37,784 nucleotides of DNA, taken from Candidatus Omnitrophota bacterium. Lineage in GTDB: Bacteria > Omnitrophota > Gorgyraeia > Zapsychrales > Zapsychraceae. The position numbers and the translations under genes are program-made. Positions 3,988-37,502 of the stretch are shown piece after piece. The stretch's first letter is position 1. The number at the start of each line of letters is the position of its first letter. Under the pieces are notes generated by a model. The model saw only the letters and a program-made list of their open reading frames with translations. It did no database searches and was not told the origin of the DNA. The stretch lies in the NCBI GenBank assembly GCA_020053475.1, contig JAGVNC010000073.1, positions 1-37,784 on the forward strand. The letters are read 5' to 3'.

Positions 3988-4416
3988 TTATGTATTCCCT
4001 ATAATCTTAGAAAAATCCGTCTTCTCTCGCCATTGCTTTGGATTGTCGGCAGTAATTCCTTTTAAGCCCTTATACTTTCTTTGAAGATTAAGAATATTTG
4101 CTTGCCTATCGTATCTATAAAAGTGGCGAAAGAGGCCCTCCAATTCTACGATTTCTTCCTTAGTAATATTCGGCCAAACCGCATAAGCAGAAAAATGTGT
4201 CCAATATTTATTTTTTCTCTTACTTGCTCTATGTCTTCTAAGTCGTCCCCTTATCCCGGAATCCGTCATGCCAATGTAACGCACTTCAAATTGTTTCGTT
4301 TTTGAATCAGGATCCTTATAATACAGCACATAAATCCCGCGCTTTCCCCCTCCAATCTCTCTAATTTTATTTTTGTCACAATACTCCAAACAATATTGAA
4401 TTAAACGAAGAGCCAT
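3988..4416 (-). CDS. GIY-YIG nuclease-domain protein
   Basis: A small single-domain GIY-YIG protein of 142 residues from the chosen start. The catalytic signature is readable: GIYVLYY, then RYIGMT, the arginine-rich helix GRLRRHRASKR, the metal-ligand glutamate in IVELEGLF, and the asparagine in ANILNLQ. Such stand-alone domains act as DNA endonucleases in mobile elements or in defence, but many are uncharacterised. I prefer the ATG at 4416, with AAAGGA upstream. An in-frame GTG at 4467 exists, but it lies inside the repeated GTCCCACTTTTT motif. The gene is flanked by copies 2 and 3 of that motif, which supports acquisition as a unit. Confidence 0.8.
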   Translation of the reverse strand: MALRLIQYCLEYCDKNKIREIGGGKRGIYVLYYKDPDSKTKQFEVRYIGMTDSGIRGRLRRHRASKRKNKYWTHFSAYAVWPNITKEEIVELEGLFRHFYRYDRQANILNLQRKYKGLKGITADNPKQWREKTDFSKIIGNT

Positions 4417-4460
4417 GTTAAGAGTTTTCCTTTCTTTAATTAGCTTAGGTCGCGGGGCAT

Positions 4461-4472
4461 GTCCCACTTTTT
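4461..4472 (+). repeat. GTCCCACTTTTT motif, copy 3
   Basis: Third exact copy, upstream of the GIY-YIG gene and 13 nt from the perfect palindrome at 4485-4510. It marks the right edge of the accessory island. Confidence 0.7.
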
Positions 4473-7112: not shown

Positions 7113-8193
7113 AACCTTCCAGGAAAATATCCTGCCCTATTTTTTTAACAATTAAATGATGAAGCCTAATCGCTTGATTGATTTTCTTAATGCCAAGCCC
7201 ATCGACAGCGCTCAATGCCTTTTGATCGCCAATAATTTTGGGGGCCATGTAAATGTGCATTTGATCCACCAAATTTTCTTTCAACGCACTGCCGATCACC
7301 TGCGCCCCGCCCTCTATCAGGATACTTGTAATCTCCTTTTTAGCAAGCTCTTTCAAAACCCACCTTAAAGGGATGCGGCCTGTCGCTCGAGGATAAATTT
7401 CAACATTGATTCCTCGTTTCCGAAACATTCCTACATTGGCGGACGAAGCGCGTTTTGTCGTAAAAATGTAACAATTTGCAGCTCTTGTTTTCTTAAACAG
7501 CTTAGCTTGAGCGGAGATGCGCAAAGAGGAATCTAAAATAATTTTTTTAAGCGCTTTGCGTTGGCCGTTGAGATTCGGGTTATCCTTAAGGACCGTATTC
7601 GCCCCAACTAAAATCGCATCAAATTGATCTCGCCGGCGACGAGCCAAATCACGCGTTTGGGCTGAGGTGATCCAATAAGAATCCCCGCTGGCCGTTGCGA
7701 TCTTCCCGTCTAATGTGATCGCCGATTTGGCGACGACAAACGGCATCTTATCTTTGATAAATTTTACAAACACCTCATTTAACAATCGCGCTTCTTTTTC
7801 CAATACCCCTGTTTTAACGCGAATCCCGGCCCGCTTTAATTTGGCCAATGATTTTCCGTTCGTCAACGGGTTAGGATCTTTCATCGCCACGACGATTTTG
7901 TTAATGCCGCTTCGTAAAACCCGCTCAACACACGGCGGCGTGTAGCCATCATGATGACAAGGTTCCAGATTAAGATAAAGGGTTGCGCCTCGCGCTTTTG
8001 CTCCGGCCTTATTGAAGGCGATCACCTCAGCATGATCTGTCCCGCGCTGTCGGTGCCATCCTGTGGCGATGACCCGGCCTGCCTTTACCAGGACAGCTCC
8101 AACCATCGGATTAGGAGAGGTCATCCCTCGTCCTTGCCTGGCCAAAGCCAGCGCTTTGCGCATAAATAGAATATCTTGATTGTTGTTAGGCAT
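7093..8193 (-). CDS. ribD: Bifunctional riboflavin deaminase/reductase RibD
   Basis: Catalyses two successive steps: deamination of diaminohydroxyphosphoribosylamino-pyrimidine, then NADPH reduction of the ribosyl side chain. The N-terminal cytidine-deaminase-like domain (about 1-145) carries the zinc ligands and catalytic Glu in DHAEVIAF and EPCHHDGYTPPC. The C-terminal reductase domain has AKSAITLDGKIAT and the late ILIEGGAQVIGS motif. I use the ATG at 8193 (366 residues), which overlaps the PHP gene by 8 nt. An earlier in-frame ATG at 8232 would add 13 residues with no family support. It is preceded by the PHP gene and followed by ribE. Confidence 0.95.
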   Translation of the reverse strand: MPNNNQDILFMRKALALARQGRGMTSPNPMVGAVLVKAGRVIATGWHRQRGTDHAEVIAFNKAGAKARGATLYLNLEPCHHDGYTPPCVERVLRSGINKIVVAMKDPNPLTNGKSLAKLKRAGIRVKTGVLEKEARLLNEVFVKFIKDKMPFVVAKSAITLDGKIATASGDSYWITSAQTRDLARRRRDQFDAILVGANTVLKDNPNLNGQRKALKKIILDSSLRISAQAKLFKKTRAANCYIFTTKRASSANVGMFRKRGINVEIYPRATGRIPLRWVLKELAKKEITSILIEGGAQVIGSALKENLVDQMHIYMAPKIIGDQKALSAVDGLGIKKINQAIRLHHLIVKKIGQDIFLEGYVHRHH

Positions 8194-9016
8194 GGGTCGG
8201 AACAGATTGCTTAAGTTTTTCAACAAGATCATAAGGGATTTTCACGCGGCCGACAAATGTGTGTTTTTTGGCGGCGCCATGGGCATCGGAACCACCCGTC
8301 ACAACCATCTGATGCTTGCTCGCTAAGTTACAATAAAACTCACTCAATTTTGCGGGAGTATTTGGATAAAAAGCTTCCAACCCACCGAGCCCCCATTTAG
8401 CAAATTGCGCGATCAACTCATCGACACCTGTAACCATCGGATGAGCCAACACAGTCACTCCGCCATATTTTTTAATTAATTCGATGGCTTCCTGCGGGGT
8501 TTGTTTGAATTTCGGGACATACGCGGCAGCCCCGTCGGCCAAAAATCGATCGAACGCTTCCTGAAGGCTTGTCACATACCCTTTTTGCTTAAGAACTAAT
8601 GCCAAATGCGGACGCCCGACGGCTTTCGAATGAACCAAGCCGCAGACTTCTTCCAAAGAAATATTTCCGAACCCTAATTGTTTTAATTTATCAATCATTT
8701 GCTCCATGCGCTGGATACGGGCATTTTGCATGATCTCTAATTGGCGGTTCAATTCTTCATTTTGGTAATCAAATAAATAGGCGAGGATATGAATATCTTT
8801 TCCGTTCAACTCCGCCGAAAGTTCAATGGCGGGGATCACTTCAATGCCAAATTCCTTAGCGGCCTCAATGGTGGGGGCAATCCCATCAACGGTGTCATGA
8901 TCGGCGATGGCAATACAACTGAGCCCCTGATCGATGGCTTGCTGAATCACTTCTTGAGGAGAAGAGGTGCTGTCAGAGTAAAAGGTATGGATATGAAGAT
9001 CGGCCCATTTGCTCAT
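8186..9016 (-). CDS. PHP-domain phosphoesterase (RNase AM/TrpH-like)
   Basis: A metal-dependent phosphoesterase of the PHP superfamily, 276 residues. Metal-binding motifs are clear: DLHIHTFYSDS (His8, His10), ADHDT (Asp39, His40, Asp41), AHPMV in the middle and GGSDAHG near residue 246. Close relatives include E. coli RNase AM (YciV), which removes 5' nucleotides from RNA, and nucleoside 3',5'-bisphosphate phosphatases. Which substrate applies cannot be read from sequence. It overlaps nusB by 4 nt and ribD by 8 nt, so it is an integral member of the rib operon. Confidence 0.9.
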   Translation of the reverse strand: MSKWADLHIHTFYSDSTSSPQEVIQQAIDQGLSCIAIADHDTVDGIAPTIEAAKEFGIEVIPAIELSAELNGKDIHILAYLFDYQNEELNRQLEIMQNARIQRMEQMIDKLKQLGFGNISLEEVCGLVHSKAVGRPHLALVLKQKGYVTSLQEAFDRFLADGAAAYVPKFKQTPQEAIELIKKYGGVTVLAHPMVTGVDELIAQFAKWGLGGLEAFYPNTPAKLSEFYCNLASKHQMVVTGGSDAHGAAKKHTFVGRVKIPYDLVEKLKQSVPTHA

Positions 9017-34588: not shown

Positions 34589-35911
34589 TTATAAATTTTT
34601 ATTCAATTTATCTTCTAAATATCGTTGAACATTATCAACAGGAACACGCTCTTGGCGCATCGTATCACGTTCACGCACCGTCACTTGCTTGTCTTCCAAC
34701 GATTGGACGTCCACCGTCACGCAATAAAATGTCCCGATTTCGTCCTGGCGCCGATAGAGTTTGCCGATCGCCGCTGTATCGTCGTAAACGCACGTAAATT
34801 CTTTTTGTAGATCTTTTTTAAGATTTTTTGCCAACGCCACCAGTGGCTCATTCTTCTTGATTAAGGGCAAGACCGCCACCTTAATCGGGGCTAACGGTTT
34901 GCTCAAACGCAAGACCACGCGTTGGCGGCCTTCCACTTCTTCTTCATCATAAGCGTCCACGAGAAAAGCCAACGTGGCGCGGTCAACACCGCCCGAAGGC
35001 TCGATGACATGAGGAAAAAATTTTTCGGTGGTAACAGGATCTTGATATTGGAGATCAACGCCGGAAAATTTGGCGTGTTGTTTAAGGTCATAATCACTGC
35101 GGTTGGCGATCCCTTCGAGTTCCGACCATCCGAAGGGGAATTGATATTCGATGTCGGTGCATCCTTTGGCGTAATGGGCCAATTCGTCGCTGGCATGCGG
35201 ACGCTGTTGAAGGTTTTCTTTGCGGATCCCCAGGCTAGTGTACCAGCTAAACCGTTCGTTGATCCAGCGCTCGTAGCAGGCCGCGGCGTCTTTGGGTGTT
35301 GTGAAATATTCAATTTCCATCTGTTCAAATTCGCGCATCCGAAATGTAAAATTCCCCGGAGTTACTTCATTGCGAAACGATTTCCCGATCTGGGCGATCC
35401 CAAAAGGCAATTTCCGGTGAGTGGCGTCCAACACATTCTTGAAGTTAACGAAAATCCCTTGGGCGGTTTCCGGCCGTAAATAGATGATACTGGATTCGTC
35501 GGCAACCGCTCCCACCTGCGTTTTAAACATCAGGTTAAACGCCCGGCCTTCGGTGAATTCCGTGCCGCCGCATTGGGGACATTTGCCTTTAATTAAATGA
35601 TCTTCACGAAACCGTTTATTGCACTTCTTACATTCGACGACAATGTCGTTGAAATTGCTCGTGTGCCCTGACGCTTCCCACGTCTTTGGATGCATCAAAA
35701 TGCTGGCATCCAGGCCGACCATATCGTCGCGTTCGTGAACAACGGCCTTCCACCACGCCGCTTTCACGTTGTTTTTCAATTCTACACCCAAAGGGCCATA
35801 ATCCCACGTGCTCCCCAAGCCCCCATAAATTTCCGAAGAAGGAAAGATGAATCCACGCCTCTTGCAGAGCGAAACAATCTTTTCCATGGAGGTAGCAACG
35901 GCGTTACGCAT
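34589..35911 (-). CDS. glyS: Glycyl-tRNA synthetase, single-chain alpha2 type
   Basis: Charges tRNA-Gly. This is the archaeal/eukaryotic-like homodimeric form, 440 residues, not the bacterial alpha2beta2 form. Class II motifs are visible: motif 1 near the N-terminus (GGLGSTWDYGPLGVELKNN), motif 2 (FGIAQIGKSFRNEVTPGNFTFRMREFEQME), and motif 3 (EPSGGVDRATLAFLVDAY). A zinc ribbon, CKKCNKRF and CPQCGG, lies at about 93-115. The C-terminal anticodon-binding domain has PIKVAVLPL and EIGTFYCVTVD. I keep the first ATG (35911); a strong -10 lies 9 nt upstream and there is no ribosome site, so it may be leaderless. Confidence 0.96.
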   Translation of the reverse strand: MRNAVATSMEKIVSLCKRRGFIFPSSEIYGGLGSTWDYGPLGVELKNNVKAAWWKAVVHERDDMVGLDASILMHPKTWEASGHTSNFNDIVVECKKCNKRFREDHLIKGKCPQCGGTEFTEGRAFNLMFKTQVGAVADESSIIYLRPETAQGIFVNFKNVLDATHRKLPFGIAQIGKSFRNEVTPGNFTFRMREFEQMEIEYFTTPKDAAACYERWINERFSWYTSLGIRKENLQQRPHASDELAHYAKGCTDIEYQFPFGWSELEGIANRSDYDLKQHAKFSGVDLQYQDPVTTEKFFPHVIEPSGGVDRATLAFLVDAYDEEEVEGRQRVVLRLSKPLAPIKVAVLPLIKKNEPLVALAKNLKKDLQKEFTCVYDDTAAIGKLYRRQDEIGTFYCVTVDVQSLEDKQVTVRERDTMRQERVPVDNVQRYLEDKLNKNL

Positions 35912-35972: not shown

Positions 35973-36192
35973 TTTGTCCGCCTTAGGCGGACAGCAAGGG
36001 GGCATTTCCATCTATAATCTTAATATTATTATAAGGCAAACAAGCAGGATTAAACAAGGCTCTTAAGCGCCCGCTGGGGCCGTTCGTACTTAAGGAGGGA
36101 ATATTTCAAATCGATGATTTTACGCCGTTGGAGCCTTTTCAGCGCACGAAACTGAAGGCCCAAGCGGTATTCACGTTCCGGCGCGGGAAGAA
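35973..36192. repeat. 220-bp direct duplication, copy 1
   Basis: Matches 37283-37502 over 220 bp at a constant offset of 1310, with 9 mismatches and no gaps by eye (about 96%). It holds the 3' part of a PilZ-like gene and its downstream flank. It starts with a perfect TGTCCGCC/GGCGGACA hairpin (35975-35993) that is degraded in copy 2. Confidence 0.9.
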
Positions 36193-36205
36193 ATTTATAG
36201 CTCAT
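36050..36205 (-). pseudogene. Duplicated C-terminal fragment of a PilZ-like protein
   Basis: 51 codons. After five new N-terminal residues (MSYKF) the sequence is the tail of the PilZ-like protein at the right edge, LPAPEREYRLGLQFRALKR to the stop. The ATG overlaps the nucleotidyltransferase stop as ATGA, so it could still be translated by coupling. It lacks the RxxxR and DxSxxG motifs that bind cyclic di-GMP and is best called a fragment created by the 220-bp duplication. Confidence 0.75.
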
Positions 36206-36881
36206 TGAAGTATTTCCAAAATTTCTTTTTCTTTCCCTCTAACCAAAACGCCAAGAATTTTCTTCTGCCATTTTGAAGGAACAGACCCAAAAACCGTTTT
36301 GATTTTTCCGGCCTCGCCTTTTCTCATAAGGGCATTTAATATTTCAAGCGCCATGATCCTGTCTTTAGCGGCTTTATCTTCATTTTGCCTTCTTTGGGAG
36401 ATCATCAGCTTATGCAGGGCGAAATTGGCCGGATGCGGAAGAAAAACATGAAAATCCGCCACTTTTACTTTAACGGTATCTTCCGCGAGGAAATTCAGAA
36501 ACCGCAGGGCTGTCGCGTTGACTTTTAACTGCGGCAATGAAACGGGCTTATCCGTGCCGCGGCCTTTTTCAGGGGACAAAAATTCCACAACCAGATCGGG
36601 ATGCTCCAATTTCATATATCCTTGTGTGCCCCTGTAACCGATAACAAACCCGAGGTCCTTTAAAAGTCCGGGAACATCGACATTCACCCGGATCCTCTCG
36701 GATGAGGGACAAGGAAATCAACATCCCTTGTTTTAATGGTTGAAAGATATTTTACTCCGGCGAAATATTCCTTATAAAACGGCATGCACCAACTGCCTAT
36801 CAGAATAACGCCGCCGAGCAAATTCCGGCTGCTTAACCTTCTTAAAACTTCAACACACAGTTCATACTGATTCTTTTCCAC
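36202..36881 (-). pseudogene. Nucleotidyltransferase-like gene split by a frameshift
   Basis: The first frame starts at the GTG at 36881 (AAGGAG ribosome site) and encodes 65 residues: LLGGVILIGSWCMPFY and the acidic KTRDVDFLVPHP motif. It then runs into RGSG-stop at 36684. The second frame continues as SERIRVNVDVPGLLKDLGF to 36202; an internal GTG at 36687 could restart it. Together they form one protein of about 226 residues with a pol-beta-like Gly-Ser / Asp-x-Asp active site. The break is at about 36697-36710, near CATCCGAGAGG. It is a frameshift mutation, an assembly error, or GTGA-coupled restart. It overlaps the preceding 105-residue gene by 20 nt. Confidence 0.75.
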
Positions 36882-37179
36882 GCAGCGCGCTCCTTAAGAA
36901 TCTGACCTGCTTTTTGACCTGAGATAACAATTTCCTATACTTTGCCCTATACTCTTTCACTTCCTTGTTCTTTCTTATTTCACTCTCTGACACTTTCCCC
37001 TTATAAATAAACTTGATCTTCCCCTTTTCCCGCAACAAAAGATAATAATATTCGTGCCCCTTGACCTTCTTTTTGACAAGACTTCCCTTGGGCAACTTAG
37101 CCAGTTCTCTCTCATAACTTTTCTTCATCTGTAGAGAATTCGCGAGCTCTTCCTTGAGGACCCCTTTGATGACTCCCAT
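36862..37179 (-). CDS. Small Lys-rich protein heading the nucleotidyltransferase module
   Basis: 105 residues, no named family recognised. It is very basic and mostly helical. The centre has beta-like KGHEYYYLLLREKGKIKFIYKGK, the N-terminal helix begins MGVIKGVLKEELANSLQ, and the C-terminal helix is KEVKEYRAKYRKLLSQVKKQVRFL. It is transcribed from a perfect consensus promoter with repeated operator-like sites. It overlaps the nucleotidyltransferase gene, as toxin-antitoxin partners often do, so it may be the antitoxin/autorepressor (inference). The ribosome site GGAGAAG precedes the ATG. Confidence 0.65.
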   Translation of the reverse strand: MGVIKGVLKEELANSLQMKKSYERELAKLPKGSLVKKKVKGHEYYYLLLREKGKIKFIYKGKVSESEIRKNKEVKEYRAKYRKLLSQVKKQVRFLRSALRGKESV

Positions 37180-37206
37180 ATTCTTCTCCGGTTTCAGTCA
37201 GATCTG

Positions 37207-37274
37207 TTACCATACAATTTATGGAATATTATATTTTGTATGACAACTGATGTCAATCCCAAATTACCATACAA
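37207..37274 (-). promoter_or_regulatory. Consensus promoter with repeated TACCATACAA operator sites
   Basis: TTGACA (37251-37256), exactly 17 bp and TATAAT (37228-37233) on the minus strand form a perfect sigma70 promoter. The 11-mer TTACCATACAA occurs at 37207-37217 and 37264-37274, and the inverse TTGTATG at 37236-37242, inside the spacer. The sites bracket and overlap the promoter, as in autoregulated modules. Confidence 0.78.
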
Positions 37275-37282
37275 CTGCACTA

Positions 37283-37502
37283 TTTGTCCGCCTTAAGTGG
37301 ACAGCAAGGGGGCATTTCCATCTATAATCTTAATATTATTATAAGACAAACAGGCAGGATTAAACAAGGCTCTTAAGCGCCCGCTGGGGCCGTTCGTACT
37401 TAAGGAGAGAATATTTCAAATCGAGGATTTTACGCCGTTGGAGCCTTTTCAGCGCGCGAAACTGAAGGCCCAAACGATATTCACGTTCCGGCGCGGGAAG
37501 AA
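37283..37502. repeat. 220-bp direct duplication, copy 2
   Basis: Partner of 35973-36192. Here the repeat is continuous with the rest of the PilZ-like gene, so this is probably the original. The two copies bracket the nucleotidyltransferase module. Confidence 0.9.

Follow-up and report, generated by a model that had tools for sequence, protein, structure and literature searches.

How did a compact two-gene module come to lie between two copies of the end of one gene? In the window, by which we mean the whole 37,784-nucleotide stretch that was analyzed and which is the complete contig C12 of host genome G000, two gap-free direct repeats of 220 bp share 96% identity, with 9 substitutions (E 1.5e-99, far beyond chance), and enclose 1,090 bp (36193-37282), in agreement with an earlier sequence-only reading that had reported 9 mismatches in 220 bp and a bracketed module of approximately 1.09 kb. 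Each copy comprises the last 46 codons and the stop of a PilZ-like gene plus 77 bp (Table 1), and there is no third copy in the 2.03-Mb host genome, where the sole extra match is to 29 bp of the palindrome at the repeat end. The order along the minus strand is the PilZ-like gene with the right tail, a palindrome, the promoter, a gene for a 105-aa protein, the nucleotidyltransferase gene, the orphan left tail, a second palindrome and glyS. The ATG of the left tail, at 36205, overlaps the nucleotidyltransferase stop (ATGA), just as that reading had described it, and the promoter it had attributed to the module is borne out as a pattern (TTGACA-N17-TATAAT, 12/12). What it had called a nucleotidyltransferase module does hold such a gene, but the genes number two, not one.

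Table 1. Features of the repeat-bracketed module and its surroundings, with the tRNA-Ser array of a relative.
Feature	Location	Strand	Basis or detail
Glycyl-tRNA synthetase (glyS), next gene past orphan tail, outside cassette	34589..35911	-	
Left repeat copy: orphan PilZ tail + 77 bp	35973..36192	-	
Perfect palindrome TGTCCGCCTTAGGCGGACA, outer end of left copy	35975..35993	.	flank CAGCGC common to contig C73 copy
Orphan PilZ tail ORF, 51 aa, ATG overlapping nucleotidyltransferase stop	36050..36205	-	
PF12281 (NTP_transf_8) nucleotidyltransferase, split by 1-nt deletion	36202..36881	-	Pfam on both parts; alignment with intact relatives
105-aa first module gene, candidate antitoxin/regulator, without Pfam family	36862..37179	-	
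Putative operator array with promoter	37206..37274	-	TTGTATGGTAAT 37274-37263; reverse site 37247-37236; TTGTATGGTAAC 37217-37206; -35 TTGACA / -10 TATAAT 37256-37228
Right repeat copy: PilZ 3' end (46 codons + stop) + 77 bp, fused to gene	37283..37502	-	
Palindrome TGTCCGCCTTAAGTGGACA, outer end of right copy	37285..37303	.	2 changes vs perfect form
PilZ-domain-like gene, C-terminal part, cut by contig end	37360..37725	-	40% identity to same-family PilZ-like proteins over 108 aa; weak TIGR02266 match
tRNA-Ser-anchored cassette array	L090+L091 (G234:C1:553000-592999), 22.9 to 15.1 kb	minus	

What does the module encode? For the 105-aa protein, AlphaFold2 predicted a helix, three strands and a long helix (mean pLDDT 89.6); a Foldseek search with this model returned nothing below E 0.19, and the protein matched no antitoxin among Pfam, PADLOC and PDB. 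Hfq was dropped as its identity, the similarity being sub-threshold and seen in only 4 of 16 members. The nucleotidyltransferase is split into two ORFs, 36684-36881 (65 codons, with the GS...DxD motif) and 36202-36687 (161 codons), that overlap at GTGA, and the C-terminal part alone gives the PF12281 match with an E of 3.5e-17. Its closest relative, at locus L050 in genome G016, is 74% identical, and relative to it one nucleotide has been lost after the DxD motif; G29 S30 and D53xD55 are invariant in the intact relatives. Since the gene is frameshifted, the window copy of the cassette may already be decaying, and the window is not alone in having a broken copy, because the nucleotidyltransferase gene of a relative in G198 is likewise interrupted by a stop. 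The predicted structure of an intact relative's enzyme resembles, in the PDB, ANT(2'')-Ia and the MenT1 toxin (E 2e-4 for MenT1), while AbiEii was rejected as its identity for want of a PADLOC match. The 105-aa protein and the MenT/ANT-like nucleotidyltransferase probably form a toxin-antitoxin (TA)-type pair. A search of open-access papers found nothing on the PF12281 gene pair.

Is the pair peculiar to the window? A scan of the collection yielded 72 loci from many phyla, most of the relatives being Omnitrophota by record name and the other records including Elusimicrobia, WOR-1, Kiritimatiellota, Nitrospirae and others; none lay in viral contigs and there was no PHROG match. Within the phylum, 38 of 40 loci match both module genes, some of them being cut by contig ends, and nearly all 40 agree in the short overlap between the genes and in orientation. 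The neighborhoods of these 40 relatives differ, with the module mostly co-oriented with the upstream gene or tRNA. In a set of 74 modules, drawn from several phyla, both genes recur together with an operator array around their promoter: the promoters are sigma-70-like (mean score 10.4 of 12, vs 8.3 in shuffles; 63/74 score at least 10), and the array is made of 12-mers, TTGTNNNNTAAC, which lie about -50, -20, +9 and +39 from the -35 box and alternate in orientation. Two or more operator-like sites, with conserved spacing, occur in 61/74 modules vs 2.2% of shuffles, and the window carries three. Because promoter and alternating array recur in this way, the two genes are probably autoregulated as an operon, and pair and array together would constitute a portable, TA-like unit.

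Two further loci deserve mention in their own right. L051 holds a second, truncated module (801-1397); its nucleotidyltransferase breaks off after codon 56 and continues into a 143-bp gene-tail repeat that recurs at 8064-8205. In another genus of the host's family, a distant nucleotidyltransferase relative (36%; G019:C28:85825-86244, 88197-89486) is found approximately 2 kb upstream of glyS, with two small ORFs, RelBE-like in appearance, between them.

Do relatives of the module also lie between direct repeats? We compared 500 bp on each side of the modules (E<=1e-3), using neighboring genes or ORFs as controls. Direct repeats flanked 20 of 63 modules vs 6 of 147 other genes from the same loci (p=1.6e-7), a search that had been prompted by the window and in which the window itself is counted among the 20; with a stricter threshold (E<=1e-8) the figures were 15/63 and 3/147, and a first version of the test had given 9/36 modules vs 6/145 neighboring ORFs. 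The remaining 43 of the 63 modules are without a close flanking repeat. At several loci it is the 3' tail of a tRNA gene that is repeated beyond the module, namely tRNA-Ser (L050, L080), tRNA-His (L059 and L062, from the same genus, and L072) and tRNA-Asn (L061), and these repeats, of 18-26 bp, look site-specific. No tail repeat was found for a tRNA-Glu 1,330 bp upstream of the module at L053 or another tRNA-Glu 287 bp upstream at L189. A protein-gene counterpart exists in the complete genome of Velamenicoccus archaeovorus (L066, the same locus as L200), where 73 identical bp of a gene's end recur 85 bp past the module, at a distance of about 3 kb from the gene itself, and the segment between them ends with the module. 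The repeats at L075, L077, L079, L187 and L188 are intergenic rather than gene tails, and may be dispersed elements. Two other cases were rejected as evidence: at L151 the downstream copy of the tail belongs to a full tRNA-Ser gene, and at L191 the copies of a methyltransferase gene segment resemble paralogous genes.

The single-contig genome G234 has an array in which four orphan tails, spaced approximately 1-3 kb apart, come after a tRNA-Ser. Each tail is preceded by a common block with two GGTGTTAAAA-like repeats, and the module is a cassette between two of the tails. A like layout, with GTGTGGTG repeats, is present in another genome (L167, at 3503, 5429 and 6718). In genus g47, a gene and the tRNA-His are collinear in six genomes, and the five with long enough contigs also have tRNA-Pro and tRNA-Arg close by, inverted in G230. 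DNA similarity to other occupants stops at the CCA of the tRNA-His, behind which two genomes hold the module and two a different common insert, and in one genome a 24/24 orphan tail lies approximately 150 bp beyond the tRNA. Judged by its occupants, this site is a hotspot whose inserts are interchangeable, although none of the six genomes showed it truly empty. The alternative insert carries a serine recombinase in G393, and this recombinase-bearing insert (L222, G393:C9; L221, G047:C22) sits directly behind tRNA-His, where sister species hold the module, making it a candidate mover of the module.

We are led by the enrichment of relatives between direct repeats, by the tRNA-tail cases and by the tRNA-Ser array to the view that the window most likely holds a cassette of the additive-island or CIME-like type at the 3' end of a protein gene, with the tail regenerated, and that, by analogy, it arose as in its relatives. 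On balance we favor the insertion of a two-gene, probably self-regulated cassette directly behind the PilZ gene. The sequence-only reading had also likened the locus to integration at a gene's 3' end with a regenerated tail; this gains support by analogy, from the relatives at tRNA tails and from L066, but the locus itself shows neither an empty site nor a recombinase. A PilZ-glyS junction was not found in the family genomes examined, and no empty site came to light there through glyS or PilZ, the genus having a single genome.

If the cassette did insert in this manner, a variant PilZ tail of its own would have come in with it and would be the one that completes the gene today, as the right copy. 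The original tail, with its intact palindrome and ancestral flank toward glyS, would have been displaced beyond the cassette, where it is the left copy. A circular or donor form would be expected to measure 1,310 bp, the module of 1,090 bp plus one tail. Which tail is the older? At its outer end the repeat carries a palindrome, TTTGTCCGCCTTAGGCGGACA, of which the host genome has further copies. In the left copy it is perfect and followed by the CAGCGC shared with contig C73, whereas in the right copy it is changed and adjoins the module rather than an ancestral-type flank, features that, taken alone, hint that the left tail is the original and the right one the newcomer. The dispersed copies of the palindrome lie at C50:18307, C72:4378, C73:6362 and C98:16758, the C50 copy apparently within a hemC/hemD-like gene region. 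Five of the nine mismatches fall in the coding tail and four of these five are synonymous (p=0.03 under neutrality, with n = five sites), which is what would be expected if both tails had diverged in working genes, although this too is only a hint by itself.

By what agency could the cassette have moved? The window module consists of its two genes only, with no recombinase among them, and no att core is visible at the locus. Only 12 bp separate the nucleotidyltransferase stop region from the orphan tail and 8 bp the first operator from the right repeat, and therefore there is no room for arm-like repeats of the tRNA-Ser-array type; 220 bp is also long for an att identity block. A resident tyrosine integrase was rejected as the mover because G000 has only two tyrosine recombinases, which, judged by size and number only, look like XerC/XerD; the same genome has two large serine recombinases. 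The lack of a recombinase and att core, together with the little room for arm sites, leaves a serine recombinase acting in trans, for which those of the host would be candidates, or homologous recombination of a circle by RecA between the 220-bp tails. The second of these routes, a Campbell-type integration of a circle carrying module and PilZ tail with no site-specific recombinase, is a serious possibility that we nevertheless would not put at even chances, and it overlaps with the favored explanation, being the RecA route within it. It accords with a homology of 220 bp at 96%, which is sufficient, with differences that are scattered over the whole block and with a module that has no recombinase, but it leaves unexplained the short tRNA-tail repeats of the relatives.

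Alternatively, was the PilZ tail, or the whole gene, simply duplicated in tandem, the module then landing between the two or taking the place of the second copy's body, without carrying any tail? The length of the repeats, their confinement to one place and the lack of att-like arms are all compatible with this, and at L191 paralogue-like segments do flank a module. Such a history, however, calls for two independent events whose ends both fall no more than about 12 bp from the module, sits poorly with the synonymous changes when one copy would have been a dead fragment, and offers nothing for the like pattern around unrelated tRNAs; we regard it as rather unlikely, and as less likely than either of the two recombination routes above. 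That two strain variants of one tail were joined through a misassembled module is very improbable, because although the host assembly is metagenome-like and fragmented (109 contigs) and the contig breaks off in the PilZ frame, near a stop and only 282 bp from the right copy, both junctions would need to be in reads, the module aligns with a relative over its full length at 74-86%, and like arrangements occur in single-contig and complete genomes. The stop is an in-frame TGA at 37725-37723 (ERSGNERANIRRDTPKNSV*PNIQKP), either a nonsense mutation or an end-of-contig error.

The insertion of a cassette behind the PilZ gene, as we favor it, connects what is odd about a single contig with a cassette that recurs in Omnitrophota as well as in several further phyla that are poorly cultured, and that is recognizable from its gene pair, its operator array and the tail repeats at its flanks. 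If such cassettes are mobile without a recombinase of their own, they would make it simple to trace insertions that restore a tail, by serving as a marker; the 105-aa/PF12281 pair, for its part, offers itself as a candidate for a new TA family of the nucleotidyltransferase type. A bolder and doubtful proposal is that the pair, with its alternating operator array, is an undescribed TA family whose minimal cassettes, lacking a recombinase, spread across phyla and go in behind genes for tRNAs and proteins, whose tails they restore.

The window carries another TA locus, an AbiEi/AbiEii-type pair on the minus strand at 927-2562 (PADLOC E 7.5e-69 and 2.9e-105), which lies between fabG-like and fabZ-like genes. 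With it are a 159-aa ORF (3988-4467), which matches PDC-S14 weakly, and an unknown ORF of 308 aa; these two ORFs are enclosed by a direct repeat of 36 bp, 83% identical, at 2951-2986 and 4437-4472.

How does the cassette compare with known systems? CIMEs, or cis-mobilizable elements, are att-flanked derivatives of integrative elements that lack a recombinase. The window cassette is similarly flanked by gene-tail direct repeats and has no recombination gene, but it is very small (1.3 kb), and no complete integrative element related to it was found. With the short cassettes of integron arrays, separated by repeated recombination sites, the G234 array has its layout in common, although the repeats here are gene or tRNA tails and not attC. 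Like the MenAT and AbiE systems, the module is a two-gene operon with a nucleotidyltransferase-fold protein (MenT: PMC10435456), but its enzyme belongs to PF12281, not AbiEii, and its 105-aa partner falls outside antitoxin models and folds. The additive genomic island cassettes of Ca. Actinomarinales are small and lie behind tRNA genes, the tRNA end recurring as a direct repeat at the far end of the cassette (PMC7771536); tRNA-Lys tail repeats mark the additive island fGI-2 of Methylophilaceae (PMC10872708), and Alteromonas has additive flexible genomic island cassettes as well (PMC5217437). Direct repeats of a gene's 3' end at both ends are likewise seen in the window. Cassettes next to tRNA genes with tail repeats are thus already known, and the window differs from them in its target, the 3' end of a protein gene with a repeat of 220 bp, and in its cargo, one particular TA-like pair that recurs across phyla.
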